Assembly (NCBI GenBank): GCA_020073665.1
Contig: JAIQEU010000018.1
Span: forward strand, 1 to 64,000
Direction of reading: 5' to 3'
DNA: 64,000 bases
Source of the DNA: Terriglobia bacterium
Lineage (GTDB): Bacteria > Acidobacteriota > Terriglobia > Terriglobales > Acidobacteriaceae
Made by a program: the position numbers and the translations under genes. Below the pieces are notes generated by a model, which saw nothing but the letters and a program-made list of their open reading frames with translations, did not search any database and was not told the origin of the DNA. Positions 36,029 to 59,120 of this stretch are shown here, piece by piece (within the stretch, counting starts at the first letter, position 1; the number at the start of each line of letters is the position of its first letter).

Positions 36029-36344
36029 TCGTGCATCCTGCCCACAGCCCCGACCACAATCGTGCTGACCTGCATGAGGATGGACGTCATACTGACGTCA
36101 TACTAAGGATAGCGGCCCTAACACTGACCAAGAGCATTACCGGGCAATTGGCTGCAGCAGAACCAGCTCCGGCAGTTCACGCAAGTGGTGGGGTGGTTGG
36201 CGTCCCCGACGGGATTTGAACCCGTCGGACTTCAAAATGGCCCGCTGATTCCAAAGAACTTAGGCCAAGCCGGCCTTTGCCGGGCTCATCCTCACCCCCC
36301 TTTTCAAGAAGCCTGCCATGAGAGCGCGAGTATTTGATCGCGAC
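36029..36344. other. Intergenic region containing a tRNA 3'-end fragment
   Basis: No gene. A direct doubling of GACGTCATACT occurs at about 36083-36105. A tRNA 3'-end copy lies at 36198-36225 (see that entry). Confidence 0.5.
36198..36225 (-). other. tRNA-Glu-type 3'-end fragment (possible att site)
   Basis: On the minus strand it gives a T-arm with loop TTCAAAT, acceptor 3' strand CGGGGAC, discriminator G and CCA. No matching 5' acceptor (GTCCCCG) lies upstream, so it is not a tRNA gene. The 29-bp stretch 36197-36225 is identical to 42719-42747, which extends into a recognisable tRNA-Glu half. Confidence 0.6.
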
Positions 36345-42712: not shown

Positions 42713-42719
42713 AAGGATT

Positions 42720-42763
42720 TGGCGTCCCCGACGGGATTTGAACCCGTGTTACCGCCGTGAAAG
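42720..42763 (-). other. 3' half of tRNA-Glu (TTC), probable attachment-site core
   Basis: The minus strand reads CTTTCACGGCGGTAACACGG and then the T-arm, CGGGGAC, G and CCA. This is a textbook tRNA-Glu from the anticodon loop to the 3' end. The 5' side of the anticodon stem and everything before it do not match a tRNA. It lies directly next to a recombinase remnant, and its last 29 bp recur at 36197. Confidence 0.75.
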
Positions 42764-42895
42764 TCGTCCTAGAGTTCGTAACCGATTGAAACTAAACGGT
42801 ACGGATAGCGCTCTAGGGCACTTATCGGACTGTGGAGACGGGTTATCGGACTGTTAACGGACTGTGGTGGCCAGGTGCTAAGGAGCCTGAAAATC

Positions 42896-43294
42896 ATGGA
42901 CCTGACCCTTCTTTCCCTGCTGGATTCGATCCCGCAGAAACCACCTCGCTCCAAACTCGAAACTCACCGCGAACTGATCCGCCAGCTGCGCCGCAAAGGC
43001 TGCACGTATCGCGACATCGTTCGCATTCTTCACGAGCGTGCCGGCCTCGACGTGGCAGTCAGCACGATTCACTCCTTCATCAAGGTACGTGCCAAGCACC
43101 GAAAGCAGGTGCAGTACGAACTGCCTCCGCTCGAACCGGAATCGCCCGTTAGCACCCGTATGAGTTCCGACGATGTTGCGTCCCGAATTGCGGCACTCAA
43201 AGCAAAACCAGTTGAGCAGAAAGCAAAACCCAAACACTTTCACTTTGAAGAAACCGAGCCGTTGAAACTCGTCAGCCAAGGAGGATCGCGATGA
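42896..43294 (+). CDS. Small HTH protein of a mobile-element transfer/partition cluster
   Basis: 132 aa from ATG 42896. The first 70 residues read as a helix-turn-helix domain: RELIRQLRRKGCTYRDIVRI and VAVSTIHSFIKVRAK. The remainder is charged and linker-like. I recall this MDLTLLSLLD...RRKGxTYRDIxxIL type from plasmids and integrative elements, beside ParA/TraL-like ATPase genes. The stop overlaps the next start by 4 bp (ATGA), implying translational coupling. Its role could be regulatory or accessory to mobilisation. Confidence 0.6.
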   Translation: MDLTLLSLLDSIPQKPPRSKLETHRELIRQLRRKGCTYRDIVRILHERAGLDVAVSTIHSFIKVRAKHRKQVQYELPPLEPESPVSTRMSSDDVASRIAALKAKPVEQKAKPKHFHFEETEPLKLVSQGGSR

Positions 43295-44022
43295 ACGCCC
43301 CAGCGAAGAACAAACGAGTCGTCTTCACCATGGGTGGCAAAGGCGGAGTTGGCAAGACTGGCCTGATGGTCGCCCTGGCGGAGTGGTTCGAAGCCAATGA
43401 GATTCCATTCACGCTGCTCGACCTCGATACCGAAAACAAAGCTCGGGGATCACTCAAACACTTCTTCAACGGGTCGGTGGCCAAGGTAAATATTCACACT
43501 CCAGCCGGTCTCGACGCGTTCGTAGATCATCTCGAATCCGGCGCCGCGATTATCCTAGCCGATATGGGAGCCGGTTCCGGGCAAGTGGCGACCGAGTGGT
43601 TCGACGCAATGTATGAGGATGTCGCGGCGACCGGCGCGCGCTTCACTGCGGTGGGTGTTGTTACGCCAGACCCAGCAAGCGTTGAGAGTGTCCTCGCATG
43701 GGGAAACCGACTGCAGGAACGGGCACAGTTTCTGATAGTCCAGAATGCGACAAGTCCTCAGGCAGACTTCAGCTACTGGGATTCGGCTGAGCAAGCCATT
43801 CGTTTCCGCGAAGCGCTATCGCCGACCGTGATTCGGATGGAGTTTCGCTTGGCAGAACTGGAAAACCCCGCACGGCAACACGGCATCCGCCTTGGCCAGG
43901 TTGCTACAAGGCAGAATGCGATTAACGAACTGAAGCGTGCCTCGATCGTGATGCGTGCGGAGAGCTACCGGCGGCGGCTCTTCTCCGAATTCGACCGGGC
44001 AAAGGAGATATTTCTACCATGA
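43291..44022 (+). CDS. ParA/MinD-superfamily ATPase (TraL-like)
   Basis: 243 aa with AAGGAGG upstream and a 4-bp overlap with both neighbours. The deviant Walker A motif GGKGGVGKTG is near residue 15, the Walker A' region is LLDLDTENKARGS, and the Walker B-like stretch is IILADMGAG. No membrane segment. Such ATPases on mobile elements act in partition or, as TraL-like proteins, in mobilisation. The gene order with an HTH protein before and a coiled-coil membrane protein after is consistent with a plasmid or ICE remnant. Confidence 0.75.
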   Translation: MNAPAKNKRVVFTMGGKGGVGKTGLMVALAEWFEANEIPFTLLDLDTENKARGSLKHFFNGSVAKVNIHTPAGLDAFVDHLESGAAIILADMGAGSGQVATEWFDAMYEDVAATGARFTAVGVVTPDPASVESVLAWGNRLQERAQFLIVQNATSPQADFSYWDSAEQAIRFREALSPTVIRMEFRLAELENPARQHGIRLGQVATRQNAINELKRASIVMRAESYRRRLFSEFDRAKEIFLP

Positions 44023-44870
44023 GCCCCGAGCAGGAAATCCTCAATTTGGCGGGCGCAGAGTTGGCGGGCGCAGAGTTGGCGGGCGCAGAGTCCGAGAGCA
44101 AAACCCTGTTCGATGAACTGGCCGGACTGGTGCCCGTTGAACGGCAGGCGGAATACTATAGGGTCATCGCACACACTCGCACCCTTAGCCCAAACGACGA
44201 GATGCTCCGGATACTGGAAGCGATGGGCATCCTCGCGCTCCTCACCCGAGAAACGCCTGCGGAGATCGCCGCAGAGCGGAAGTCATTGCGGAAGATCTTG
44301 GAAGCTTCCGCTTCTCAGGCCAATGCGGTCGAGAAGCGAATGGAAGAATACACATCGCTACTTGAATCACGCATTACCCACTTGCCGAAGGAATTGGAAA
44401 CAGGGTTGGACCCGCCTCGAATTGCGAAGTTGCTGGGCGAGAGTATTCGACAGTGTTTCCAGCAGTCCGGTCTGCCGGATAGCGCCAGAGCGCTTGACCA
44501 ATCTTGTTCTGAAATGAGTTCCGTCCAAAAGCAACTTATGAACGTGCTGCGAGAAGTAGCTCACCCCGACATCGGAGTGATCGCAAAGGTCCGAAGCGCT
44601 AATGACTCGCTCGTGCGGAGCATGACTGCAAGGGCACAACAAATCGACGTTTTACTTGATAGGCTGGAAAAGCAGGTCTGGGCAACGTGGCTGCCTGTCG
44701 TTGCCAGTGCCGCCCTCGCATTGGGCTTCTTCTTGGGTACTTGGTTTGCCAATAAACGGCAAGTGGCAGTGGCACCGGAGACACATGGGACCGCTCAATC
44801 ACAACAAGAGCTGTTGGCTCCAGAGGTATCTCCCCGGACTCTTCCGCAGCGGCGGTTAAAGCACCATTGA
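44019..44870 (+). CDS. Coiled-coil protein with C-terminal transmembrane helix
   Basis: 283 aa, start coupled to the ATPase stop (ATGA). Near the N-terminus is a threefold LAGAE pentapeptide repeat. Residues about 85-225 are helical with coiled-coil character. One TM helix (WLPVVASAALALGFFLGTWF) near 228-247 is followed by a polar tail. It resembles in layout the TraM-type or other mobilisation-associated membrane proteins that follow TraL-like ATPases, but I see no specific motif. Confidence 0.55.
   Translation: MSPEQEILNLAGAELAGAELAGAESESKTLFDELAGLVPVERQAEYYRVIAHTRTLSPNDEMLRILEAMGILALLTRETPAEIAAERKSLRKILEASASQANAVEKRMEEYTSLLESRITHLPKELETGLDPPRIAKLLGESIRQCFQQSGLPDSARALDQSCSEMSSVQKQLMNVLREVAHPDIGVIAKVRSANDSLVRSMTARAQQIDVLLDRLEKQVWATWLPVVASAALALGFFLGTWFANKRQVAVAPETHGTAQSQQELLAPEVSPRTLPQRRLKHH
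44046..44090 (+). repeat. Three perfect 15-bp tandem repeats inside the gene
   Basis: TTGGCGGGCGCAGAG occurs three times in a row, coding LAGAE each time. It is in frame, so copy-number change would not break the protein. Confidence 0.9.
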
Positions 44871-44879
44871 AACGAAATA

Positions 44880-44945
44880 TTGCGAGAGGGGCGACCTGGC
44901 TATACTATTAAGCACGCAGTTCCCATAAAGTGCGAACTATATGGG
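44880..44945 (+). promoter_or_regulatory. Probable abiE promoter with inverted repeats
   Basis: TTGCGA (44880) and TATACT (44901) are separated by 15 bp. Downstream are short inverted repeats CCCATA...TATGGG (44922-44945) and CTATAT...ATATAG (44938-44956). Known AbiEi antitoxins autorepress by binding inverted repeats at their promoter, so these are candidate operators. Confidence 0.4.
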
Positions 44946-44958
44946 TTAGAATATAGCC

Positions 44959-45765
44959 ATGAAACCTGAGCCAGATTCGTTGCCTGCCTCTCGCGCGCGG
45001 CTCGCTGCGGTACTTCGCTCCACAAAGGAAGTCGTATCGGTTGACATTACGACCAAGACCCTCGGAATTGATCGGCGCGCCGCCGCCAAACTTCTGTCCC
45101 GATGGAGAGAGCAAGGCTGGCTTCGAAGGATAGGCCGCGGGCTCTATGTTTCCGTACCTTTGGATCTGGCAGCCAGCGAGCAGGTAATTGGAGATCCATG
45201 GGTGCTCGTCCCAACGCTCTTTGGCCAATGCTACATCGGCGGTTGGACGGCCGCTCACCATTGGGAACTCACTGAGCAGCTCTTTAATGAAACCTTCGTC
45301 TTTACCACGCGCCGTGTCATTGAGAAACGAGTAACTGCCCAAGGCGCTACCTTCCTGCTGCGCAGCGTGAAAACCAAACGCCTCTTCGGATTGAAAACAC
45401 TGTGGCGTGGTTCTGTCAAGGTCGCGATATCGGATTCCGCGCGCACGTTGGTCGATATGATCGCCGCGCCGGATGTTGGAGGCGGCATCGATCACGTAGC
45501 CGATTGCGTAAGTACATATCTCGGCAGCAAGACTGCCGATCGCGATCTGTTGATCCGCTATGCAACGCAGTTCGGCAATGGCGCCATCTTTAAGCGGCTC
45601 GGGTTTCTTGCAGACACTCGCCTGCGCGACAAGAAACTCGCGGCTGAGTGCCGCTCCCGTCTCACGCAGGGTTATGCCAGACTCGACCCGGCGCTCTCCT
45701 CCCGGAAACTCGTCACCGCTTGGCGGCTCTGGGTACCAGCGGCCTGGAAAGAAACAGCCTCATGA
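44959..45765 (+). CDS. AbiEi-type antitoxin / transcriptional regulator
   Basis: 268 aa. The N-terminal winged-HTH-like region (ITTKTLGIDRRAAAKLLSRW followed by GWLRRIGRGLYV) is typical of AbiEi proteins. The AbiEi C-terminal domain follows: YIGGWTAAHHWELTEQ, FVFTTRR and DSARTLVDMIAAPDVGGGID. In known type IV systems this protein represses the operon and counteracts the AbiEii toxin without forming a stable complex. The stop overlaps the toxin start (ATGA). The promoter lies just upstream. Confidence 0.85.
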   Translation: MKPEPDSLPASRARLAAVLRSTKEVVSVDITTKTLGIDRRAAAKLLSRWREQGWLRRIGRGLYVSVPLDLAASEQVIGDPWVLVPTLFGQCYIGGWTAAHHWELTEQLFNETFVFTTRRVIEKRVTAQGATFLLRSVKTKRLFGLKTLWRGSVKVAISDSARTLVDMIAAPDVGGGIDHVADCVSTYLGSKTADRDLLIRYATQFGNGAIFKRLGFLADTRLRDKKLAAECRSRLTQGYARLDPALSSRKLVTAWRLWVPAAWKETAS

Positions 45766-47156
45766 TCGACAAACGCGAAATTCTCGAATCCGCGTCGTCG
45801 TTTTCTCTGTTGCCCAGCATTGTGGAGAAGGACTACGTCCTAGGCTGGATACTCGCCGGTATCAACGCGCACGAAGAGCTCTCGGAAAGCTGGGTCTTTA
45901 AGGGAGGCACCTGTCTCAAGAAGTGTTATTTCGAGACATACCGGTTTTCAGAGGATCTGGATTTCACGCTGCGGGATGAAGGTCACATTGACGACGAGTT
46001 CCTGCGTCCGGTATTCGAAGAAGTTATCCGTTGGGTATCGGAACAATCGGGACTGAACATCCCCGTCGATCAGCTCGAATTCGATATCTACGAAAACCCG
46101 CGTGGCCGTCCCAACTGTCAGGGAAAGATTGCTTATCGAGGCCCAGTCTCCCCGACTTCGGGCGGCTGGCCGAAAATCAAGCTCGATCTAACGGCGGATG
46201 AGAGGCTGGTGCTTCCCTCTGTCCGTCGCGAGGTATTTCATCCCTACAGCGACCGTCCCGAAGGAGGGATTTGGGCCAATTGCTACGCCTACGAGGAAGC
46301 CTTCGGGGAAAAGTTGCGGGCGCTCGGAGAACGGACGCGCCCCCGCGATCTTTACGACGTGGTGAACCTCTATAGGCACACGGACAGTCGTCCAAGTGCG
46401 TCGGTACTTCGCGACGTGCTCCAGCAGAAGTGCGCATACAAAGCGATTCCTGTGCCCACGTTCGAGCTCCTGGCATCCCATCGCCTGTCTCTTGAGGCGA
46501 TGTGGTCGGATATGCTAGCGCACCAGCTTCCCGTTCTTCCCCCGCTGAATGACTTCTGGGACGCGCTCCCCGAAATCTTCACTTGGATCATGCGTGGCAC
46601 GGACGTCCCGCAGCGCGCACTCATTCAGCACGGCGCCAGCGAAACCGCTGTCCGCACGCGCGTGCTGCCGATGGGCATTCCCTTCCGCTCCCGTTCGACT
46701 CTGGAAATCATCCGCTTCGCTGCGGCGAACCATCTGTGCGTTGATCTGAGCTATGACGGCAGCGTGCGCCGCATAGAGCCGTATTCTCTGCGCCAGACGG
46801 CCGACGGATACTTCGTACTGCACGCCATCCGCAGCGATTCGGGCGAGCATCGCTCTTACCGTGTGGACCGGATGCAGGATGCAACCGTCACGTCGCAAGT
46901 CTTCATGCCGCGCTACGCGGTTGAACTGACTTCGACGGGGCCTCTCGCCGTTGCTCCTACAGCAATGCCTCGAATACCAAGCATCCGTCGAGCGGCGAGA
47001 GCCGCACGGCAGGGCCCGACTTACGTCTACCGATGTACCGTCTGCCGAAAGACATTTACCAGAAAGGCTATGGACGGCTCGCTCAACCCTCACAAAAACC
47101 CTCGTGGCTATCCATGCCCTGGACGGTACGGCGTGTACGTTCGCACCAAGTATTAG
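45762..47156 (+). CDS. AbiEii-family nucleotidyltransferase toxin fused to WYL domain and C-terminal Cys/His cluster
   Basis: 464 aa from ATG 45762, coupled to abiEi. The N-terminal 290 residues are the AbiEii/AbiGii nucleotidyltransferase: VEKDYVLGWILAGI, FKGGTCLKKCYFETYRFSED near 45-64 (the GG...SxDLDF active-site pattern), IKLDLTADE and EEAFGEKLRALGERTRPRDLYDVV. Residues about 305-388 read as a WYL domain (RIEPYSLRQTADGYFVLHAI, SYRVDRMQDATV). The end has CTVCRKTF with a following His and Cys, a zinc-ribbon-like tail. Classical AbiEii ends after the first part, so this is a fusion with a probable ligand-sensing module. Some relatives (MenT) act on tRNA 3' ends with NTPs; that activity here is inference. 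Confidence 0.85.
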   Translation: MIDKREILESASSFSLLPSIVEKDYVLGWILAGINAHEELSESWVFKGGTCLKKCYFETYRFSEDLDFTLRDEGHIDDEFLRPVFEEVIRWVSEQSGLNIPVDQLEFDIYENPRGRPNCQGKIAYRGPVSPTSGGWPKIKLDLTADERLVLPSVRREVFHPYSDRPEGGIWANCYAYEEAFGEKLRALGERTRPRDLYDVVNLYRHTDSRPSASVLRDVLQQKCAYKAIPVPTFELLASHRLSLEAMWSDMLAHQLPVLPPLNDFWDALPEIFTWIMRGTDVPQRALIQHGASETAVRTRVLPMGIPFRSRSTLEIIRFAAANHLCVDLSYDGSVRRIEPYSLRQTADGYFVLHAIRSDSGEHRSYRVDRMQDATVTSQVFMPRYAVELTSTGPLAVAPTAMPRIPSIRRAARAARQGPTYVYRCTVCRKTFTRKAMDGSLNPHKNPRGYPCPGRYGVYVRTKY

Positions 47157-47559
47157 GATGGCGGATTAGTGAACTCGCTAGTCTCCGAAGCGCCGGTTCT
47201 AGATTTTTCATGGTGTCCGAACGATGACCGCACAGGAGTCGAACAGACTCGAACCCTGTTCGATCTCGTGCGAGCAGCGTTCGCTAGTTCCCGGACGGCC
47301 TGCACCGACCTAAGCCGAAGGCTTAGGGATGGTGTCTCTTTGGAAAACGAATTGGTTTCCTCTCGAATGGCCTCTGCTGCGCCAAATCTCCATCAGTCGT
47401 GGATAGCCTGCCGTTCCAAGGCTGGCCTACGAAAAACGCGTGCACCACCAACGGTTTCATGCTAAATTAGTTTTGTGAAGCGCCTGCTTCAATTTCGATC
47501 GTCATTACGACTCAGTCCATCCCGACTGAGTTATTAACTCCTGCACAATTTATAGCTTC
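47157..47559. other. Region between the abiE pair and the plus-strand tRNAs
   Basis: An open frame from 47169 to 47465 is not convincing. A small palindrome, TAAGCCGAAGGCTTA, lies near 47311. No clear tRNA promoter was identified. Confidence 0.4.
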
Positions 47560-47637
47560 AGGCCCGTGGCGGAACTGGCATACGCAGCTGCCTCAAGAGC
47601 AGCCTTTTTGTGGGTTCAACTCCCACCGGGCCTACCA
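47560..47637 (+). tRNA. tRNA-Leu (CAA), short variable arm
   Basis: Acceptor AGGCCCG/CGGGCCT, A73 and encoded CCA. The D-arm GCGGAACTGGCATACGC is leucine-like. The anticodon arm is GCTGC-CTCAAGA-GCAGC, giving CAA. The variable region is only six nucleotides (CTTTTT), whereas bacterial tRNA-Leu normally carries a long arm. Confidence 0.85.
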
Positions 47638-47665
47638 GAATTCTGTTGTTCTTTGACAATTCAAC

Positions 47666-47753
47666 GGAGAGTGGGCCGGACGGTAAGGCACTTGTCTGCT
47701 AAACAAGGGCTCTCGCAAGAGGCTAACGGGTTCAACTCCCGTACTCTCCGCCA
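47666..47753 (+). tRNA. tRNA-Ser (GCT)
   Basis: Acceptor GGAGAGT/ACTCTCC, G73, CCA. The anticodon arm is CTTGT-CTGCTAA-ACAAG. It has a normal long variable arm (GGCTCTCGCAAGAGGCT). Confidence 0.95.
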
Positions 47754-47757
47754 ATGC

Positions 47758-47846
47758 GGAAGGTACTGCTGAATGGCCGGCAACTGGTCCTGAAAACCGG
47801 GGCATCGTGATGAGCGATGGGCGTTCGATTCGTCTACCTTCCGCCA
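47758..47846 (+). tRNA. tRNA-Ser (TGA)
   Basis: Acceptor GGAAGGT/ACCTTCC, G73, CCA. The anticodon arm is CTGGT-CCTGAAA-ACCGG. A long variable arm is present. Only four bases separate it from the preceding tRNA. Confidence 0.9.
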
Positions 47847-47851
47847 AGTTT

Positions 47852-47942
47852 GCACAGGTGCGTAAGCCCGGCCGAAACGGACCGACTGTAACCCGGTTTC
47901 CCCGAGTGGGACGCGGAGGTTCAAATCCTCCCCTGTGCACCA
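47852..47942 (+). tRNA. tRNA-Tyr (GTA)
   Basis: Acceptor GCACAGG/CCTGTGC, A73, CCA. The anticodon loop is CTGTAAC with a weak last stem pair (A-C). The long variable arm is as expected for bacterial tRNA-Tyr. Confidence 0.9.
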
Positions 47943-47946
47943 CAGT

Positions 47947-48023
47947 GCCAGCGTGTGCGAATTGGAATAGCAGCCTGTCTTAGAAACAGGTGTTTGAGAG
48001 TTCGAATCTCTCCGCTGGCACCA
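47947..48023 (+). tRNA. tRNA-Leu (TAG), short variable arm
   Basis: Acceptor GCCAGCG/CGCTGGC, A73, CCA. The anticodon arm is CCTGT-CTTAGAA-ACAGG. The variable loop is five nucleotides (TGTTT), again not the class II arm expected for leucine. Confidence 0.85.
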
Positions 48024-48068
48024 GATTTCTTGATCCGCTGTGCATGGTCGGAAATCGGCAGTCCGCCG

Positions 48069-51000
48069 CTACTGGCCAACGGCCTTCGCCGAGTTGTTCG
48101 CACTACCTCGCAACATTGTCAGATGTTGTTGCGCTATGACATAAGAGGTACCGGGATAGTCCGTCTTAGGCTTCTCCACGCGGGAGTACATTTTCTCGGC
48201 CGCATCGAGAACGCCATATTGCTCCGCGATCAGAGCAAACCCGAACCACACCTCCGAGTTTGCCTCCTCCAGGTGCAGCGTATCCATGGCTTTCAGCAAT
48301 AGATCGCGTGCCTGACTGGTCTTCCCCGCCTGGGCATCGACACAAGCGAGGGTATGGAGAATAGCGAAATTGGCGTTCTTGCTCAGGTCGTTGGCACGCT
48401 GCGCCACATCAATCGCGCTCTGCTCGATCGGACCGGGGAGAAGCAACGCATACCATGCATACAGATTCAGGTCGGTCTCCGTGGCCTGTCCCTTGTCCAT
48501 GATTCCCTTAATAATGTCCCTTGACCTGCCGAACTGCCCTCGATAAGCAGCCAGCCTCGCGGATGAACGTACATAGGCCAACTCATCGGGATACTCTTGT
48601 ATCCGAGTTTGAACGAGTCTATCCCAATCGTCAAACCGCTTCAGTCCCGCAAACGCCGTCGTAGCAAGTTCGAAAGCACGCACCGAAGTGGGTGCGGCCT
48701 TTAGCAATTCTGCTGTCAGCGGCAGCATGTCGGCCCATTTCTCCTGGGCTGCATAAGCATATGCCATTACCATCGTCAGTCGGTTGCGATCGAGATCTGT
48801 CTTCGCTGCCTTCCGCGCTTGATCCAGCGCGGTGAAATACGGGCCGTTGACCGCTTTGGATCGGAGCAGCACGAGGCTTGCGGTGCGCATGGTTGGGACA
48901 TCAGCGTCTTGTCCTTTGGTCCAGAAGTAAGGAAAAGGCTGACCAGAGAGAGGATCGTCGCCACCGCTCACATGTATCTTGTCTCGTGCCCGATCCAGCC
49001 ATTTCCTTGCAGCAGACGGGTTGTTGTTCTCGATGGCTTGAAGCGCGAGCGGAGCCAGTTCTTCGATGTTCGAGCCGGACTCGGCAAAAGCAGCTGCTTT
49101 GTAACGCCCTCCATCCTTCACGACATACACGTCCTGGGCAGCCGCTCCGGGGCTCTCGATGATGATCTTGTACCCGAGCGAGTCATCGCCGTCCACCGTG
49201 TAATGCATGTTGGACACTGCTAGATCAGCGATGGTGACGAGCGGAAGTCCCGTAGCTGCCATCTGCGACTTGAGTCCTGCCATCATCTCGTGGAATTGCT
49301 TTTCGTCCTGCGTCGCGTCTGAGTCCTTCGGGTCGATGTAGATCATTGACTTGAACTCTTCAAGGGTCAGCTGGCCACTTAACATCAGGCCAAATAACTG
49401 CTGCACCACGCCGCGCGGGTCGGCTGGATCGATGGCTGTTGCGTCATACGGTTTAGTTGTGGCGAAGATGGCTGCACTTCGCGTGATTTGACTCTCGTTG
49501 CTTTGTCCCCGCGCTCCTTCGGTTATTAACACAGCAGCTTCCGGATATTTTCTGACTCGAACCAGGACCGCTCCAGCATTAGCCAATACTTTGCTGCGGC
49601 TTTGGTCGTCTGTTGTGATCTCCAGCGACCTCTTCAGCGCTGCATCTGAGCCTTGCTGGATGGAAATCGCCGCCAACATGAGGCCCTTTCGAACATCGCT
49701 GGCGGGCAGAGTTGCCGCGTAGTCGACGACACCTTTGTAGTCGTGCGCGTACCAGAGATCGTAGAGAATATTGTCGTCGTAGGTGCGACTGTATTCTTCG
49801 TCAAGCTTCTTCAATTCACGCAAGACTTCCACCGCTTCCTTTAGCCGCGCTTTCTCGCCGTACCGGGTTCCGTCTGCGTCGTACTCAAGCAAAAGTGCGA
49901 GGTTTGCGCGCGTCTCTTTATCCTTCGGATCGAGCGCGATGGCCTTTCGGTATGCGGCGATCGCCCCGTCATAGTCCATCCCCTTTTTCAGAAGGCGGCC
50001 GATCAGATCATGTTTCAAAACCATCCCGAGAGTGCTTTGTGCCAATGCCGAGTTGGGTTCAAGCGCAGTACTCTCCGAGGCCACGCGACGAGCTTGCTCC
50101 CCCAGTCCGGCCGTGATCAGCGCCTGAGCAAGTTGCACCTTGTGCAATGCCTCCTTGGGGCGCTGGGCTGCGACCTCACGATAAGCCGCCAGCCCCTCTT
50201 TGATCTTGCCGGCGGAAATGAGCGAGTGTCCGACATTGTCGAATGTGACGAAGATGGGATCGACAGCGCGCGCTTTCAGCACCGCCTCGCGCAGATCCTT
50301 GGCTTGCTGCACTGTCATTCTGGTGTTTGTATTCTCGACTCGGAGGAACGCTTCCACAATGGTGCCCTCGGAGTTGGTCGAGTACTTTTGAGTGAAGCTC
50401 AGAGTGTCTACCTTCTCGTCCTTATCTGAAGGAAGCGCCCGCAGTTTGAAACCGAGTGGCGCTGTTACCTTGTAGTGCCATTCGGTGGTGAAAGGTGTTA
50501 TCAACCAATCGGTCGTCCGTGGTTTTGGCTTCTCCGAGTCCTCCCCTTCAGTCGTCTCCTCGTTCTCTTTGGTTCTAAAGTACTTAGGAAGACGGTCGAA
50601 GAGAGACTCAACGCGGATGGCCACGAGGGCCGTGGTCAGGTCGGTATTCCCGCGCTTCCCCTTGCTGACGAACCGGATTGACGCTGGTTTCTCCAAGTCA
50701 GATAAATCGTCGTGCTCCAAGGAGGTAAGCGAATCAGCCAAATACATGTCTTTTACATAGCTTTCGCTGGCCTCCCTGACTTGCTTGCTATCGCCACTGT
50801 AGTATTCGCGATAGTCAGCTTCATCCGGGCCAATCTCCTCATCGGTTTCCACAAATGTTGCCAATCCGTAATCGGCGAGCGTGACCTCTCGCGATTCCCG
50901 GTGCACATTACCTGCTGATGTAATGTCAGGAGTCTTCCTCAGCGCTTCGGTCTTCTCATCAACGATGAGGGCCCAACGCCCGTAGTCCATCCATGGCAGC

Positions 51001-52222
51001 ATCCCCAGTTGAGAGTATTGGGCGGTAGCGTCAACCCAAAGATCCGAATCGGCACCAGACGCTGGAACATATACGATGGCGTGGTCAAACATCCCCATAC
51101 CAGGTAGATGAGTATTAAGCTCTCGTCCTGGCCCAGTATTGAGAAGAGCTAGACTCGCAGGAATTCCTGCGCTCCGAAGCATTGTGACCAGCAGCGTGGC
51201 CTTGTCTTTGCAATCGCCGTACCCGCGCTTCAGAGTCTCGGATGGAAACTGCGGGATTAAACTAGACTCCCCAAACTCTATCCCTGTGTAACGAACGTTT
51301 TTGTGCAAGGTGCCGACAATGCCGTGAATCAGGTCGCTGCGAGTTCCATTCTTCGCCTTGATCTTAGAAATCAGTGTCTGAACGTCCTCCGACCGTAGTT
51401 TGTCATTCGATAGACGCGCATACTCGGAAGCAACGTGATGCCATGAGGTGCCGGTCGAAAACTCGATTTCCGGGTACAAAACGAGATCGGCTGGAACGTG
51501 GTTTATCTCCTCCGTGTAGGCAGGCAATGGCCCTTGCTGAACAGTAATTGTCTCCAGGCCGACGTCCGTTGACTTCCCAACGGTTGCCTCTGGCAGCAAG
51601 TGCACTTCGTACTGGATGGGAAGTGAGACAGGATGTATGAGAACGACACGAGTCTTGTTTACAGGAACATTCCAACCAAATATCCACCTGCGAACTGTTC
51701 CCGCAGCAAAAAGGGGAGCCGTATCGCGGACCGACACTTCCTCCTCGACAATTGAGCCAGGAGCAACTGCTGGTAACGGTCCGCCATACTTTCGCTCATC
51801 GCTGTAAACATCTGGTGCATCCTCGTGCACGGGGAAGTCATTCAGAGTCTTTGGATCGAGCCAGTGGACAGCGCCGTCGGCCGTGATGACGCGAGCCTTA
51901 ATCTCCGGTTTGTCCTGATGCCACGCCTCCCATCGGCCACTGGTCTCAGCCCAGTCTTTTACACCATCTTGATTTTCGATCCGGTAGATCAAGTGGCGGG
52001 TCTCTAGCATCTTGCCGTTTTCGTCGAACTTGAAATGCAGCTCGTTCAACAGTACGGTGGCTTCACTATTTTTCCTGCCTGGACTGCCTGAGCTGCCTGC
52101 CGCAGAATTGCCGCATCCGTCGTGAAAGCTGGGCTGTCCCAAGCATCTGTAGCGCTCAATCGGGTGCCGATTGAAAGAACAACAACGATCAAGAATGTCT
52201 GAAGACGCAGCAGCGAATGCAC
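48069..52222 (-). pseudogene. DUF3857/transglutaminase-like protein with TPRs; signal peptide in another frame
   Basis: The long frame (to 52142) encodes a DUF3857 domain (VLLNELHFKFDENGKMLETR), then a transglutaminase-like domain with GYGDCKDKATLL, FDHAIVYVP and LWVDAT (the Cys, His and Asp of the family). About 700 residues of TPR-like helices follow. Its own N-terminus is implausible. A GTG at 52222, preceded by GAGG, opens a neighbouring frame giving a good signal peptide, HSLLRLQTFLIVVVLSIGTR, followed by DAAILRQAAQAVQAGK. That frame would join the main one if the A run (T run at 52069-52073) had one more base. So the gene is either disrupted, mis-assembled by one base, or slips there. 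The intact family is periplasmic. Confidence 0.75.
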
Positions 52223-52335
52223 GTTTGGAACCTCGGTGGCCAGAGTAGAACCTATTCTTCTACGCTAATATCGCAATGAAAGAAAGAGAAAATGCCCTAG
52301 GGCTCATTGGCCGCTAGCCATTTGCGGCGCGTAAA

Positions 52336-54891
52336 CTACAGTCTCGGATCTACGGGTTCGCTCTCCAGCGCAAGCACTCCGAAGACACACTCATGAACTC
52401 GGCGCAGTGGTTCTTGGTGAACAAACCGCTCCAACGCTTCCAACCCCAAAGCAAACTCCCGAAGCGCGAGCGAACGCTTTGCGCCCAGACCTCTGCTCTT
52501 TAGCCGCAGCAAGTTCTCGGGAAGCGTGTATTCCGGGCCATAGATAATCCGCAAGTATTCTCGTCCACGGACCTTCACGGCAGGTTGCACCAATCCTTTC
52601 CGACCCTTAGCCACAAACTCCAACGGCTTAACAACCATGCCTTCACCGCCACTTGCCGTCAGCTCCTCCCACCATTTGATTCCTTTCTCCTGGTCGGCTC
52701 TGTCGGTAAGATCCACGACTTGAAATGGTGTTGCGAGTAGTAGACCAATGTCGGCCTGACACATTCGGGCAAGAATCCCCATGTGCCACAGGTGATCTTT
52801 CGCGGAGTGAACGGCACCCTCGCTGGCAAGCAGGTGGAAAGGCGCCAGTTTCAGGTCGGCTAGAGAACGCACCGTCCAGCAGTATCGTCGGTAAGCCTCG
52901 ACATAGAGATCTGCGGCTTCCTTGCGCTGTTGGTATTGTTCTGCAAGCGCTGAAATTTCATGATTTTCCGCGCTCGCTCTCAACGCACCAATCGCCACCG
53001 GCAAAGCCGCTCGGGCCGCCGCCCCGGTTGGAGCATATTGCTGGCGCAGCAACTCTTGCGCCTTGGCTGACCATGGCATCAATTCGCAGTCCAGGCAGAC
53101 CCAGTCAGTTTTGAGCTCTTCCCAAATGCCCGCTACGTCTACGGCTTTTCGGACTTTTTCCAGAAACTCCGACTCTCGTGGCGGGTCATTGAAGAACCGC
53201 CGCCCCGTCCGCGTGTAGCAGACTCCGGCCTCGCCTTCCATAATTCCAAACCGTTTGCGCGCAGCATCGGCGTCACGACAGACAACGACTACCGCTCGCG
53301 ATCCCATGTGCTTCTGTTGGCAGACCACCTTGTGCACGCCCTCGTGCAGGTAGTAGGCAAAGGCTTCTTCAGGATGTTCGAGCAGTCCGTTACGTTTACT
53401 GGTCTCACATGGGGACATCGTGGGCGGCAGGTAGATGAGCCACTTTGGATTTACCGCAAATCGGCTCATCACCTCCAGGGCTGTGATCGCATTCTCTTCT
53501 CGAATCGTGATGTTACGGTGCAACCGCGTGTTAATGATCCGCTTGCCGATGACATCCTCGATGTCGAGCAGGTCATCCAATTGCTGTTGTGCAGTCAGCG
53601 CTGGCGCCAATTCCTCCTGGGACAAGAACGGCTTGGCCGACTCGTAATAGGTTCGGAGAGCAGAAACCGACATCAATTCACGTTCGGGATAACGGAGGGC
53701 AGTCAATTTTCCGCCGAACACGCACCCGGTATCTATGTTGATCGTGCGGTTCAGCCATTCTGGCTCGGCAACCGGCGTATGCCCATAAACCACCATCGCC
53801 TTGCCACGATACTCAGCCGCCCAGTTGTAGCGCACTGGGAGTCCGTATTCGTCCGTCTCCCCGGTGGTCTCTCCATAGAGCGCAAAATCGCGCACTTTGC
53901 CAGAGCCGCGTCCCTGCATCTCCTCTCTCATGCCGGCGTGTGCCACGACGAGCTTCCCTTCGTCGAACACATAGTGGCTGACCAGATCGTCGAGAAACTT
54001 GATGACCGTCTGCTTGAATTCAGGAGTCTCCTTATCGAGCTGTTCAACTGAGTCGGCCAATCCATGCGTCAACTGCACATCGCGTCCCTTCAGTTTCCGC
54101 ATCAGCTTCATGTCATGATTTCCAGGAACGCAGAACGCCGTGCCGTCTTCAACCATTTCCATGACCAGGCGCAGCACCGCTGAAATCTTGGGCCCGCGGT
54201 CAACTAGATCACCAACGAAAATCGCTCTGCGTCCATCGGGTGGAGTAACAGTTGTTGCTGTCGGTTCTTCGTTGATCTGGTAACCAAGCTGAACGAGCAA
54301 AGCGGACAACTCTTCGTAGCAACCGTGTACGTCCCCGATGATGTCGAACGGCCCATGCTCGTGTTTCAGATTATTCCAAAGCGGCTGTCGCACGATCGTG
54401 ACCGAGGAGACCTCCTCTGGACTCGACAGCACGAAGACATGACGGAAGCCTTCGCGTTCCAGTCCCCGAAGCGAGCGCCGCAGTTGTTGCGCCTGGTTTC
54501 GGATGACGTGAGGACCGAACTGACGGTCGGGCCGACTCTGATTACGTTCGTGGCAGACCTTCTCTGGCAGGTTCAAAACGATGGCCACCGGCAAAACATG
54601 AAACTCGCGAGCGAGTGCCACTAGCGGCTTGCGCGCCTCAGGCTGTACGTTGGTCGCGTCAACTACGGTCAGACGGCCAGCAGCAAGCCTCTTGCGAGCG
54701 ACGTAGTGCAGGACATCGAATGCATCATTCGTGGCCTCTTGGGAATTCTCGTCGTCTGACACAAGACCGCGGCAGAAGTCTGAAGAGAGAACCTCCGTGG
54801 ACTTGAAGTGCTCCCGAGCGAAACTCGACTTCCCGCAGCCCGAAGGACCGATGAGAACAACCAACGAAAGTTCAGGAATCGTTATGGTCAC
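52336..54891 (-). CDS. pnkp: Polynucleotide kinase-phosphatase-ligase of the bacterial RNA repair system
   Basis: 851 aa, close to the length of the well-studied clostridial Pnkp (about 870). Three domains are in order: a P-loop kinase (GPSGCGKSSFAREHF near residue 13); a binuclear metallophosphatase (GDVHGCYEE near 185, GDLVDRGP near 229, GNHD near 257, AHAGM and YGHTP); and a C-terminal nucleotidyltransferase/ligase domain with the adenylation-type motif QKHMGSR near 525. Known Pnkp heals both ends of cleaved RNA and seals after Hen1 activates it. The start overlaps the hen1 stop by 4 bp (ATGA). All three catalytic domains look intact. Confidence 0.95.
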   Translation of the reverse strand: MTITIPELSLVVLIGPSGCGKSSFAREHFKSTEVLSSDFCRGLVSDDENSQEATNDAFDVLHYVARKRLAAGRLTVVDATNVQPEARKPLVALAREFHVLPVAIVLNLPEKVCHERNQSRPDRQFGPHVIRNQAQQLRRSLRGLEREGFRHVFVLSSPEEVSSVTIVRQPLWNNLKHEHGPFDIIGDVHGCYEELSALLVQLGYQINEEPTATTVTPPDGRRAIFVGDLVDRGPKISAVLRLVMEMVEDGTAFCVPGNHDMKLMRKLKGRDVQLTHGLADSVEQLDKETPEFKQTVIKFLDDLVSHYVFDEGKLVVAHAGMREEMQGRGSGKVRDFALYGETTGETDEYGLPVRYNWAAEYRGKAMVVYGHTPVAEPEWLNRTINIDTGCVFGGKLTALRYPERELMSVSALRTYYESAKPFLSQEELAPALTAQQQLDDLLDIEDVIGKRIINTRLHRNITIREENAITALEVMSRFAVNPKWLIYLPPTMSPCETSKRNGLLEHPEEAFAYYLHEGVHKVVCQQKHMGSRAVVVVCRDADAARKRFGIMEGEAGVCYTRTGRRFFNDPPRESEFLEKVRKAVDVAGIWEELKTDWVCLDCELMPWSAKAQELLRQQYAPTGAAARAALPVAIGALRASAENHEISALAEQYQQRKEAADLYVEAYRRYCWTVRSLADLKLAPFHLLASEGAVHSAKDHLWHMGILARMCQADIGLLLATPFQVVDLTDRADQEKGIKWWEELTASGGEGMVVKPLEFVAKGRKGLVQPAVKVRGREYLRIIYGPEYTLPENLLRLKSRGLGAKRSLALREFALGLEALERFVHQEPLRRVHECVFGVLALESEPVDPRL

Positions 54892-56285
54892 GAGCTGAAT
54901 ACCCCCATCTGCGTGGGCGCGCCCACTTGGGGATCTTCTTCTCCGACCGGAAGAAACCTTACTGCGTACCCAAAGCGTTCAGAGATCCGGCGTGACCACA
55001 GCTGAAATTGCTTCCGAGTCCACTCAAAACGGTGATCTTTGTGGCGGAACTTTCCCGCGGGCAGAGTCTCGAACTTCACGTTGTACTCGCAGTTCGGAGT
55101 GGTCACGATGATCGTTTTCGGGCGCGCGGCTTCGAAAAGAACACGCTCGAATGCGGCCAGTCGCGGTGCGTCCAGATGCTCGATGACTTCCACGACCGTG
55201 GCGGCGTCGTAGCCACTCAGGCGCTTGTCCCGATACATTAGCGAACCATGGATCAGTTTCAACCGCTCCCTCTGCTTTGTGGGCATCCGGTCGACTTTCA
55301 AGCGCTGGCTCGCAATCTCAAGACTCCGATACGAGACATCCATACCCACGATCTCCGTTAGTGACTTCTCATCCAACAGGGTCCGCAGGAGTTTCCCTTC
55401 TCCACAGCCCAAGTCCAGGACGCGCTTCGCCTCGACGGATCGAAGCACAGCAACCACTGCTCCCATGCGCTGCTGCCAGAGCCGAATCGGCTCCTCCATT
55501 TTCGTTTCTTCCTCAGAGTGAGCTTCCTCTGCCGCGTCAGGATCGGGGTTGTCTTCCTCCGCGAGTCTGGCGAGTGCCTCTCGCGCCAGTTGCCGCTGCC
55601 GGGGCAGATATCGTTTTACGATCGCTTCTTTGTTAGGGTGCGATGCCAACCAGCCTTCCCCTTTTCGCAGGAGCTTCTCAACTTCGTCGTTCCCAATCCA
55701 GTAGTGCTTCTCCGCGTCGAGCACCGGGATCAGTACGTAAAGATGATTCAGCATGTCCTGCAAGCGGAATGTCCCCGCCAAGGTCACTGAGTAGTACGGT
55801 CCCTCACCCCACTCTGGAAATTTCTCGTCAAGCGGATGATGTTGGGCGGTTACGCTGTATCCCAGAGGCTCGAATAGCTCGCGGATCAAACCCTCACCGG
55901 CCCGGCAGGCTACCACCGTCAAGTTTGCGATCAACGGGATCGCCTGATCCGCCAGTTCTTGCCTCCCCTTGCTGCGGCCAGACATGGCTGTCCCGAAAGC
56001 GCGTCCCATAGCGACGCTAAGGAAAGAAGAGAGCACGTAGGGCCGGTCGTTCACATACTGATCAAGAGTTCCGCCCTCATGCTGACCCCGCTTGCCGCGA
56101 ACCAATCCCACTGGATCGACATCGAGCAGCAAGGCAGCCGTGCACCGTTCCGAGGTCGCTTCCGGGTAGAAAACATGTGCTTTCCCAAACGACAGCTCGA
56201 ACGAATGCAACTTCGCCGGGTTCTTATGAAGCAGGTAACCCAAGTCCGTCGCGGGGTTATGCGTAGTTGTGAGCGTCAAAAGCAT
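54888..56285 (-). CDS. hen1: RNA 3'-terminal 2'-O-methyltransferase Hen1
   Basis: 465 aa from ATG 56285; a longer frame continues upstream into the tRNA-Pro gene and is rejected. The N-terminal half is the bacterial Hen1 Pnkp-activating domain (LGYLLHKNPAKLHSFELSFG, FYPEATSERCTAALLLDVDP). The C-terminal half is the methyltransferase: DLGCGEGKLL near 290 and EVIEHLD near 368 (metal-binding Glu/His). In known systems Hen1 methylates the 2'-OH at the cleaved RNA 3' end before Pnkp ligation, making the repaired tRNA resistant to renewed cleavage. A perfect TATAAT lies seven bases before the ATG. Confidence 0.95.
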   Translation of the reverse strand: MLLTLTTTHNPATDLGYLLHKNPAKLHSFELSFGKAHVFYPEATSERCTAALLLDVDPVGLVRGKRGQHEGGTLDQYVNDRPYVLSSFLSVAMGRAFGTAMSGRSKGRQELADQAIPLIANLTVVACRAGEGLIRELFEPLGYSVTAQHHPLDEKFPEWGEGPYYSVTLAGTFRLQDMLNHLYVLIPVLDAEKHYWIGNDEVEKLLRKGEGWLASHPNKEAIVKRYLPRQRQLAREALARLAEEDNPDPDAAEEAHSEEETKMEEPIRLWQQRMGAVVAVLRSVEAKRVLDLGCGEGKLLRTLLDEKSLTEIVGMDVSYRSLEIASQRLKVDRMPTKQRERLKLIHGSLMYRDKRLSGYDAATVVEVIEHLDAPRLAAFERVLFEAARPKTIIVTTPNCEYNVKFETLPAGKFRHKDHRFEWTRKQFQLWSRRISERFGYAVRFLPVGEEDPQVGAPTQMGVFSS

Positions 56286-56291
56286 GGTCGA

Positions 56292-56297
56292 ATTATA
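56292..56297 (-). promoter_or_regulatory. TATAAT -10-like box just before hen1
   Basis: Six bases separate TATAAT from the ATG of hen1. If it is used, the transcript would begin at or next to the start codon (leaderless). I find no good -35 at 17 bp and there is no Shine-Dalgarno motif before this ATG. Confidence 0.4.
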
Positions 56298-56352
56298 CGA
56301 GTCCTTATTCTCTAGCTTTCGTGGACATGTATCGCCTCGAAAGCACAAAAAA

Positions 56353-56427
56353 TGGTCCGGGTGGCAGGAGTTGAACCTGCGTTGACATGTGCCCAAGACA
56401 TGTGGGTGGCCGCTACCCTACACCCGG
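56353..56427 (-). tRNA. tRNA-Pro (TGG)
   Basis: Acceptor CCGGGTG/CACCCGG, A73 and CCA. The anticodon arm is CATGT-CTTGGGC-ACATG. It lies between rtcB and hen1 in the same orientation, 33 bp after the rtcB stop. Confidence 0.95.
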
Positions 56428-56460
56428 ATTGTTAGAGAGGGCCTTGCAGCCCTCTCCTGT

Positions 56461-57690
56461 TTAGCCCTTCACGCAAACCACCTGGCGCAATGTGTGCACC
56501 ACATCCACCAAGTCACGCTGCGCTTCCATCACGGCGTCGATGGACTTGTACGCCATCGGAGTTTCGTCGATGACGTCCGCATCCTTACGACACTCGACGC
56601 CAGCCGTTGCCTTGGCGTGATCGTCCAGCGTGAAGCGGCGCTTCGCTTCCGTACGCGACATGGCGCGTCCGGCTCCATGACTACAACTCATGAAACTCTC
56701 CGGATTGCCCTTGCCGCGCACGATGTACGAGCGCGCTCCCATGCTGCCCGGGATGATTCCCATGTCGCCCTGTCGCGCACGAACTGCGCCCTTACGCGTG
56801 ATGAGCACGTTCTCGCCGTAGTGGTGCTCCCAAGTCACATAATTGTGATGGCAGCTCACGACTTCCACATTGGCTTCGAACGCCGGGACTTCTCCCGACG
56901 CCTGCACCGCCGCGATCAGGTTGCGCATCATTAGCTCGCGGTTGGCCAGCGCGTAGTCCTGTGCCCAATGCACTGCGCGGACGTAGTCCTCGAAGTGCTC
57001 CGTGCCCTGCGGCAGGTACGCGAGGTCCTGGTCCGGCAGGTTGATCATCCACTGACGCATGTCGTTCTTCGCTAGCTCGATGAAAAACGTGCCGAAGCGA
57101 TTGCCCACGCCGCGGGATCCTGAGTGCAGTAGGAACCAGACGTTCTTGTTTTCATCGAGGCAGACCTCGATGAAGTGGTTCCCAGTGCCAAGCGTTCCCA
57201 GGTGATTCACGCGCTGCTTGTGATCCAGCTTGGGATACTTCTCGACGATTGCCTTGTAAGCCGGCTCCATCTTCGCCCACACCTCCGCGTGATGCGACGG
57301 GGCATCCGACCACGCGCCGCGGTCGTTCGCTCGTCCGTTGTCGGTGCGTCCGTGCGGCACCGCCTTCTCAATCGCCGTACGGACGCCGTGCAGATTTTCC
57401 GGCAGATGATTGGCGTGCAAAGAAGTCTGCACCGCCATCATGCCGCAGCCAATATCCACACCTACCGCCGCCGGAATGATTGCGCCGCGAGTCGGAATGA
57501 CGCTGCCCACGGTCGCGCCGATGCCCCAATGCACGTCCGGCATGGCCGCCACCCACTTGTAGATGAACGGCAACTGTGCCACGTTCAAGAGCTGCTGACG
57601 CGCGGCGTCCTCGAGCTGGACACCCTTAGTCCAGGCCTTAATGGGCACGCCCTTGTCCGGCATCATCACGTTGTAGGTTGCGTCTGTCAT
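56461..57690 (-). CDS. rtcB: RNA-splicing/repair ligase RtcB
   Basis: 409 aa from ATG 57690, preceded by GGAAAG; upstream in-frame Met codons overlap tRNA DNA and are rejected. Conserved RtcB motifs are present: metal-binding GVDIGCGMM near residue 80, GTGNHFIEV near 167, HSGSRGVGN, SCHHNYVTWE and the guanylylated His in SCSHGAGR near 337. RtcB joins 2',3'-cyclic phosphate or 3'-phosphate ends to 5'-OH RNA ends using GTP and Mn. Here it sits directly behind 14 tRNA genes and ahead of tRNA-Pro, hen1 and pnkp. No archease or RtcR regulator is seen. Confidence 0.95.
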   Translation of the reverse strand: MTDATYNVMMPDKGVPIKAWTKGVQLEDAARQQLLNVAQLPFIYKWVAAMPDVHWGIGATVGSVIPTRGAIIPAAVGVDIGCGMMAVQTSLHANHLPENLHGVRTAIEKAVPHGRTDNGRANDRGAWSDAPSHHAEVWAKMEPAYKAIVEKYPKLDHKQRVNHLGTLGTGNHFIEVCLDENKNVWFLLHSGSRGVGNRFGTFFIELAKNDMRQWMINLPDQDLAYLPQGTEHFEDYVRAVHWAQDYALANRELMMRNLIAAVQASGEVPAFEANVEVVSCHHNYVTWEHHYGENVLITRKGAVRARQGDMGIIPGSMGARSYIVRGKGNPESFMSCSHGAGRAMSRTEAKRRFTLDDHAKATAGVECRKDADVIDETPMAYKSIDAVMEAQRDLVDVVHTLRQVVCVKG

Positions 57691-57730
57691 TGTCTTTCCT
57701 TTCTTGCAGCCAACATTTGCGTCACGAATC

Positions 57731-57804
57731 TGGTGGCTCGGCACGGAATTGAACCGTATCCACTGGCTTTTCAGACCAGCACTCTGCCGTCGAGTTCCCG
57801 AGCC
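57731..57804 (-). tRNA. tRNA-Phe (GAA)
   Basis: Acceptor GGCTCGG/CCGAGCC, A73, CCA. Anticodon loop CTGAAAA. Last tRNA of the array, 40 bp before the rtcB start. Confidence 0.95.
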
Positions 57805-57809
57805 AAACT

Positions 57810-57883
57810 TGGTGGACGGTGCGAGAATTGAACTCGCATTTCACGGTTGCAGGCCGTGAGTAATCCCGTTATACGAACCGCCC
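57810..57883 (-). tRNA. tRNA-Ala (TGC), C33 variant
   Basis: Acceptor GGGCGGT/ACCGTCC contains the G3-U70 pair and A73 that define alanine identity. The anticodon arm CACGG-CCTGCAA-CCGTG gives TGC with C instead of the near-universal U at position 33. Reading GCA (Cys) would require a broken stem and does not fit the acceptor. Confidence 0.75.
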
Positions 57884-57886
57884 ATT

Positions 57887-57962
57887 TGGGGCGAGATGAG
57901 AGAATCGAACTCTCGTGACTGGAGCCACAATCCAGTGCCTAAGCCATTCGGCCAATCCCGCC
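57887..57962 (-). tRNA. tRNA-His (GTG)
   Basis: G-1 opposite C73, the histidine identity feature. Acceptor GCGGGAT/ATCTCGC, anticodon loop TTGTGGC, encoded CCA. Confidence 0.95.
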
Positions 57963-57971
57963 ATCGAAATC

Positions 57972-58045
57972 TGGAGCTGGTCGAGTGAATCGAACACTCG
58001 TCGGAGAGGTACAAGCTCTCTGCACTCCCACTGTGCTAGACCAGC
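57972..58045 (-). tRNA. tRNA-Thr (TGT)
   Basis: Acceptor GCTGGTC/GACCAGC, T73, CCA. Anticodon arm GAGAG-CTTGTAC-CTCTC. Confidence 0.9.
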
Positions 58046-58052
58046 AAACTTG

Positions 58053-58127
58053 TGGAGCTGGCACGCAGCCTCGAACTGCGGTCGGGCGCTTACCATGCGC
58101 CTGCTCTTCCCGTTGAGCTATACCAGC
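58053..58127 (-). tRNA. tRNA-Thr (GGT)
   Basis: Acceptor GCTGGTA/TGCCAGC, T73, CCA. Anticodon arm GGCGC-ATGGTAA-GCGCC. Confidence 0.9.
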
Positions 58128-58129
58128 GG

Positions 58130-58201
58130 AGCTGGTGCGGCGATTCGAACGCCGATCACGGACTTACGAGGCCGGCACTCTTCCCACTGAGCTACACCAG
58201 C
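58130..58201 (-). tRNA. tRNA-Thr (CGT)
   Basis: Acceptor GCTGGTG/CACCAGC, T73. Loop CTCGTAA with one mismatch in the anticodon stem. CCA is not encoded: the next bases are CCG and the last is shared with the 5' end of the adjoining tRNA-Thr (GGT). Confidence 0.85.
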
Positions 58202-58223
58202 GCAAAACTTCTTTGCGACTATC

Positions 58224-58299
58224 TGGAGGCGGTGGGGAGAATTGCACTCCCGATGATCTCCTTTGCAGGGAGATGCCTTGCTGTCTTGGCTACACCGCC
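58224..58299 (-). tRNA. tRNA-Cys (GCA)
   Basis: Acceptor GGCGGTG/CACCGCC, T73 (cysteine-type), CCA. Anticodon arm TCTCC-CTGCAAA-GGAGA. The T-loop is TGCAATT instead of the usual TTCxAxT. Confidence 0.9.
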
Positions 58300-58309
58300 T
58301 CATGAAACC

Positions 58310-58385
58310 TGGAGCGGAAGGCGGGACTCGAACCCGCGCTCTCGACGTTGGCAACGTCGCGTCTTGGCCACTAGACGACTTCCGC
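58310..58385 (-). tRNA. tRNA-Gly (GCC)
   Basis: Acceptor GCGGAAG/CTTCCGC, T73, CCA. Anticodon arm CGACG-TTGCCAA-CGTCG. Confidence 0.95.
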
Positions 58386-58398
58386 CCTCACAAAATCT

Positions 58399-58473
58399 TG
58401 GAGCGAGCAGCGAGAGTCGAACTCGCGTCATCGGGTTGGAGGCCCGAGGCACCAGCCGCTATACCATGCTCGC
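58399..58473 (-). tRNA. tRNA-Gly (TCC), C33 variant
   Basis: Acceptor GCGAGCA/TGCTCGC, T73, CCA. Anticodon arm TCGGG-CCTCCAA-CCCGA, with C rather than U at position 33. Confidence 0.85.
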
Positions 58474-58483
58474 CCTTCACATC

Positions 58484-58560
58484 TGGCAGGGGTGACAGGA
58501 TTCGAACCTGCTTGAACTCGTTTTGGAGACGAGCGCCCTTCCCACCGGGTCATCACCCCT
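58484..58560 (-). tRNA. tRNA-Trp (CCA)
   Basis: Acceptor AGGGGTG/CACCCCT, G73, CCA. Anticodon arm CTCGT-CTCCAAA-ACGAG. Confidence 0.95.
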
Positions 58561-58561
58561 G

Positions 58562-58635
58562 TGGCGGTCGCAACGGGAGTTGAACCCGTCCCTCCTGATA
58601 GACAGTCAGGCATCCTGCCGCTAGACTCTACGACC
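58562..58635 (-). tRNA. tRNA-Asp (GTC)
   Basis: Acceptor GGTCGTA/TGCGACC, G73, CCA. Anticodon arm CCTGA-CTGTCTA-TCAGG. One base separates it from tRNA-Trp. Confidence 0.95.
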
Positions 58636-58647
58636 ACTTTTCAAACT

Positions 58648-58723
58648 TGGCTGCGAGGGCACGATTCGAACGTGCATGAACCGGGTCAGAGCCGGTTATC
58701 CTGGCCGATTGGATGACCTCGCA
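58648..58723 (-). tRNA. tRNA-Gln (CTG)
   Basis: Acceptor TGCGAGG/CCTCGCA, G73, CCA. Anticodon loop CTCTGAC. Confidence 0.95.
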
Positions 58724-58850
58724 ACTATGAGGAGGGAACCTGCGGATACGGTGTGTTTTCTGGACAAGAGAAGTAACCGTAGCCTTCACCACTCCCCGAA
58801 TTCTAACCATTGCTCCTTAATGAGCTTCCTCCTTTGCTGACCTTAGAAAC

Positions 58851-59116: not shown

Positions 59117-59120
59117 AAGT

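Follow-up and report, generated by a model that had tools for sequence, protein, structure and literature searches.

AbiE loci encode type IV toxin-antitoxin pairs in which growth is halted by the toxin, AbiEii, and AbiEi counteracts this toxin with no stable complex between the two, and the MenT-type toxins put nucleotides onto tRNA 3′ ends. A stretch of 64,000 nucleotides from a Terriglobia bacterium (contig JAIQEU010000018.1; hereafter the window) carries an AbiEii gene whose product continues beyond its nucleotidyltransferase (NTase) part into a WYL domain and a zinc-ribbon-like end. The question raised by this locus is whether such a toxin is itself switched by a signal, rather than depending on AbiEi. 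Our leading but tentative reading is that the locus is an AbiE pair whose toxin bears a C-terminal nucleic-acid-binding tail, and that this tail would provide a second control on top of that by AbiEi. The features concerned, all on the + strand, are as follows.

44898..44958, +, putative AbiEi operator immediately 5′ of the abiEi ATG, made up of nested inverted repeats (GGCTATA...AGTTC-N11-GAACT...TATAGCC)
44959..45765, +, AbiEi antitoxin/repressor, 268 aa (PADLOC PDLC02271; Pfam AbiEi_4), with an ATGA overlap with the toxin start
45762..47156, +, toxin gene AbiEii-WYL-Zn, an ORF with an ATG start, 464 aa
45762..46595, +, AbiEii NTase part, residues 1-278 (Pfam PF08843; NTase motifs; Foldseek TglT/MenT3)
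46677..46937, +, WYL domain, residues 306-392 (Pfam PF13280; model pLDDT about 87-95; Foldseek; PafB alignment)
46938..47015, +, basic disordered linker, residues 393-418 (low pLDDT; net charge)
47016..47153, +, CCHC zinc-ribbon-like tail, residues 419-464 (conserved ligands; all-beta model)

Domain architecture of the toxin

The AbiEii core proposed in the original prediction from the residues GGT (48-50) and SEDLDF (63-68) is borne out by a nearly full-length match of residues 29-269 to Pfam AbiEii (profile positions 1-236 of 238, E 1.3e-34). The residues of the four NTase motifs, namely GG48-49 (I), R61/S63/D65/D67 (II), K184 (III) and R195-D196-x2-D199 (IV), are each present in all 62 members of the alignment of relatives on which the conservation counts in this report are based. 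Given that the phosphoacceptor of MenT toxins lies in an S/T-x-D motif (PMC11375011), the equivalent residue in the window toxin is the invariant S63 (62/62), which sits in an S-x-D context comparable to T39-x-D41 of MenT1 and replaces T50 as the candidate for this role. When the model of the NTase part was compared with the PDB using Foldseek, the best matches were to TglT/MenT3 (6j7q and 6y5u, E 1e-6). MenT3/TglT and MenT1/MenT4 share the closest NTase fold and the S/T-x-D phosphoacceptor, although they lack the tail and, when the structures are aligned, identity is about 14% (PMC10435456, PMC11375011).

The C-terminal region does not belong to the standard AbiEii fold: residue 269 already completes the Pfam domain, and the nearest tail-less relatives (L007, 279 aa; L012, 277 aa) finish close to that point. 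The proposed WYL region was recovered by profile search, with residues 313-376 covering positions 2-70 of the 70-position Pfam WYL profile at 26.3 bits (E 7.5e-6; Pfam cut-off 21.8 bits). AlphaFold2, supplied with the alignment of 62 relatives, models the toxin as three folded parts (mean pLDDT 86.9). Residues 1-278 form the NTase part, residues 306-392 a barrel of five strands with one helix, and residues 419-464 an all-beta tail with pLDDT of about 90, whereas pLDDT is below 50 for linker residues 393-416. The barrel matches DriD, PafBC, CapW and BrxR in the PDB, and the Foldseek matches include the solved DriD-ssDNA and CapW-ssDNA complexes. The link to nucleic acids that was originally drawn for WYL domains is supported, in that nucleic acid is a ligand of WYL domains with this fold.

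The C-x2-C...H...C end was also read correctly from the sequence. The metal ligand pattern is C425-x2-C428...H444...C452, wherein C425, C428 and H444 are kept in 62/62 relatives and C452 in 61/62. Residues 419-436 give matches below the cut-off to zinc-ribbon and C2H2 Pfam models. Modelled alone, the tail is all-beta with no helix (mean pLDDT 90.7); the C2H2 finger assignment, suggested by weak sequence matches, was rejected, since the model lacks a helix. The top Foldseek matches are MCM zinc ribbons at E 0.59, and without a significant fold match we consider the label ‘zinc-ribbon-like’ to be fair but unproven. One AbiEi-paired relative (L006) does without this tail, and the genome of another relative carries a small stand-alone ORF of 111 aa with the same CxxC-L-x2-HK-x-C motif (L045 1330-1665).

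Pairing with AbiEi and distribution of the fusion

The product of the gene preceding the toxin matches PADLOC PDLC02271 across its full length (E 7e-116). When 84,980 species genomes were searched using the WYL and zinc parts alone, 255 related loci emerged, and among the best 80 of these, AbiEii precedes the WYL and zinc parts in 80/80. The domain order seen in the window is therefore a recurrent one, and the fusion is not the product of chance. Judging by record titles, these best 80 of 255 come from at least a dozen bacterial phyla, with many metagenome-assembled genomes among them. Seven loci (L064, L074, L085, L087, L090, L129 and L131) appear to be frame-disrupted.

AbiEi is encoded directly upstream in 79 of the same best 80 loci, the exception (L132) being cut by a contig edge. 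The gap between abiEi and the toxin gene ranges from -11 to +13 bp, and -4 is the commonest value (42/78). The divergence of AbiEi tracks that of the NTase part, with a rho of 0.83 between their pairwise identities, above the 0.66 seen between the NTase part and its own WYL part. In addition, the inverted repeat found before abiEi in the window (AGTTC...GAACT within GCTATA...TATAGC) ends at the start codon, and a strict form of its inner repeat occurs in 31 of 76 family upstream regions compared with 33 of 10366 background windows. The AbiEi of Streptococcus agalactiae represses its own operon via inverted repeats (PMC3985639). With AbiEi adjacent upstream, coevolving with the toxin and preceded by a conserved inverted repeat, control by AbiEi has almost certainly been retained in the window’s clade, as far as sequence comparison can tell. 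Thus, the original prediction finds no support where it sets this toxin apart from AbiEii proteins that depend on AbiEi; the invariance of S63 likewise argues against such a separation. The locus resembles the S. agalactiae system in gene order, the winged helix-turn-helix of AbiEi, the four NTase motifs and the inverted repeats, and the toxin differs by about 185 extra residues comprising the WYL domain, basic linker and CCHC tail (PMC3985639).

The pair of abiEi and AbiEii-WYL is also found on conjugative Rhizobium plasmids. Among 297 sampled genomes of the window’s phylum, six matches reach the WYL domain, of which one (L006) is the tail-less case noted above. No matches were detected among 50,697 phage records, and IMG/VR holds only two full-length matches, both with AbiEi. 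In six of 77 loci (L101, L112, L120, L132, L133 and L139), the next gene after the toxin is hsdM of a type I restriction-modification system, and two of these loci (L112 and L133) also have hsdS upstream; the position of hsdM directly 3′ of the toxin fits a defence role. We rejected the possibility that the WYL and zinc parts form a mobile module joined to other effectors, given that AbiEii is in front at 80/80 and that the other matches from the wider phylum search are weak and partial, although the patterns used in the module search are clade-specific and rarer fusions could escape them. The AbiE system of Mesorhizobium huakuii was likewise set aside as a studied member, since its toxin gene is 0.7 kb.

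The AbiEii-WYL architecture has already been named, in that one sentence of Makarova et al. 2014 lists WYL in combination with an ‘AbiGII-like nucleotidyltransferase (DUF1814)’ (PMC4012209). This is the same domain combination; the zinc tail, the AbiEi pairing, the distribution and the mechanism are not given in that sentence. No further mention of DUF1814 together with WYL was found in the mostly open-access main texts searched. The subfamily, as far as the WYL domain extends, is also present in the PADLOC library, as the profile PDLC02317 (396 positions, labelled simply ‘AbiEii’) matches residues 1-397 at 1.9e-192 and stops before the zinc tail. We found no published description of the zinc tail, the strict AbiEi pairing, the operator or the hsdM association, and no study of the fusion.

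Candidate roles of the C-terminal tail

Profile alignment of the WYL part with PafB of Mycobacterium smegmatis placed R336, R364, R367 and R370 of the toxin at R181, R208, R211 and R214 of PafB, and these four arginines are kept in 57-61 of the 62 relatives. In PafB, single-stranded DNA (ssDNA) binding is lost in the R181A, R211A/R214A and triple R181A/R204A/R208A mutants, and mutation of the WYL tyrosine, Y196, also abolishes it (PMC11804915). The position of Y196 is V, L or I in the 62 toxin relatives and R204 is not retained, and therefore the ligand may differ from ssDNA. As to the other eponymous residues, the tryptophan position holds L, I, F or Y, and the leucine is present in 62/62. 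The mean net charge over the relatives is +2.8 for the WYL domain, +5.5 for the linker and +6.7 for the zinc part, versus -11.9 for the NTase part. The toxin has the WYL fold and basic groove in common with the transcription factors PafBC, DriD, CapW and BrxR. However, in those factors the WYL domain governs a domain that binds DNA, and a WCX extension often comes after it, whereas in the window toxin it sits on an enzyme, has lost its tyrosine and is followed by no WCX extension.

From these sequence features, we judge it most likely that the tail binds single-stranded nucleic acid, serving either as a sensing layer or to recruit a (tRNA) substrate, and we put sensing a little ahead of recruiting. 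Switching of the toxin by a ligand is plausible, and substrate recruitment fits the same anatomy. In the mechanism that we tentatively favour, and by analogy with relatives, AbiEi would repress the operon and neutralise the toxin, perhaps by inducing autophosphorylation of S63 as in MenAT. Free toxin would transfer nucleotides to RNA, probably to tRNA 3′ ends, and growth would stop. Phage attack or DNA damage might then generate single-stranded nucleic acid to which the tail could bind, and this binding might raise toxin activity, as a control added to that by AbiEi and not as its replacement. Counting against this reading are the lost tyrosine and R204, the missing WCX extension and the AbiEi-paired L006, which does without the zinc tail. 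If true, WYL domains, familiar as regulators of transcription factors, would also act as the gate of a toxin enzyme. The predicted nucleic-acid-binding tail of so widespread a branch bears on the release of AbiE toxins in the course of infection.

Recruitment is the strongest competitor, and we regard it as a serious possibility that is nonetheless somewhat doubtful. It holds that the WYL domain and the basic CCHC tail would hold the target RNA, a tRNA, for the NTase, and that AbiEi would be the sole control, as it is in classical AbiE. The linker and tail are indeed basic, WYL is an Sm-like fold of RNA-binding type (PMC6789036), and tRNA is the target of AbiEii/MenT relatives (PMC10435456). 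Moreover, according to work cited in PMC9964779, the C-terminal WYL domain of TePif1, a Pif1 helicase from a thermophile, binds the 5′ end of the ssDNA substrate and is required for activity. However, MenT1, MenT3 and MenT4 modify tRNA without a comparable tail, and in most solved WYL proteins the domain is a sensor.

It is unlikely that the tail is purely structural, acting as a dimerisation or AbiEi-binding surface. PafBC and CapW are dimers and protein-protein contacts are possible for WYL proteins (PMC9964779), but such a role leaves aside the conserved arginines at positions that contact nucleic acid and the strongly positive charge.

Three divergent plasmid proteins (L033, L034 and L037) combine AbiEii with a diverged WYL-like region that has lost the R364/R367/R370 loop, and have no AbiEi nearby. 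One of them (L034 4529-7239, on a Streptomyces plasmid) lies downstream of an oligonucleotide cyclase gene with a gap of about 350 bp, and another (L037) precedes a DUF3800-like gene (match just under the cut-off). These proteins are what favours the original proposal of a WYL switch that has freed the toxin from AbiEi levels, which we consider very improbable for the window’s clade in view of its adjacent, coevolving AbiEi (79/80) and conserved operator.

A broader conjecture, to which we attach little weight, is that a ligand, either nucleic acid or nucleotide, directly gates the NTase toxins of the AbiEii-WYL type; this gating would be added to AbiEi in the main clade and replace it in the AbiEi-less branch. 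On at least one plasmid, that of L034, the protein occupies the place that an S-4TM effector takes beside related cyclases, and on this conjecture it would be an effector that modifies tRNA and is switched by a cyclic oligonucleotide. A recurrent operon of cyclase and AbiEii-WYL was rejected, since the cyclase relatives on two other plasmids adjoin S-4TM effectors.

Genomic surroundings

The abiE pair is contained in a short unit that is shared with one other genome.

42719..47339, no strand assigned, 4.6-kb shared block with 98.5% DNA identity to L062, both flanks differing
42719..42763, -, tRNA 3′-end fragment at the left block edge, a possible attachment site, with a 92% match to G000 C51:6631-6693

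In addition to abiEi and abiEii, the block contains small HTH-like, ParA-like ATPase and coiled-coil/TM genes upstream of abiE (42875-44870), with a faint likeness to the conjugation proteins TraK/TraL/TraM; among family loci, this trio is otherwise found only in L062. The matching segment C51:6631-6693 overlaps a tRNA called at C51:6653-6727, and an exact 29-bp copy of the tRNA fragment is located at 36197-36225. The 4.6-kb unit looks mobile, because its identity to L062 is confined to 42719-47339 and its left edge is a tRNA 3′ fragment repeated elsewhere in the genome. The copies at 42719-42763 and 36197-36225 may mark where islands lying in tandem were attached. No integrase was found inside the block. 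The 76-kb contig also encodes a TrwC/MobF relaxase (L160 8588-11386; C13 68587-71385), located about 21 kb downstream of abiE, and this gene suggests an integrated conjugative element or plasmid.

Beyond the block, about 30 tRNA genes are arranged in three clusters from 47560 to 59195 and on to contig position 66662 (L160 5725-6662), with about 46 tRNA genes elsewhere in the genome. A functional tie between abiE and this array is not supported, given that L062 synteny stops 220 bp short of the first tRNA; in 60 family loci scanned, there is at most one tRNA gene near abiE, and tmRNA occurs in two. Among the clusters are RNA-repair genes for Pnkp (52339-54891), Hen1 (54891-56396) and RtcB (56464-57744), all on the - strand, and the whole gives the impression of a spare set of tRNAs accompanied by a cassette for RNA repair. 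The trn operon of Anabaena comprises 26 tRNAs with rtcB co-regulated (PMC10272220). The Pnkp-Hen1-RtcB genes and their extra tRNA genes may exceed the toxin fusion in interest.
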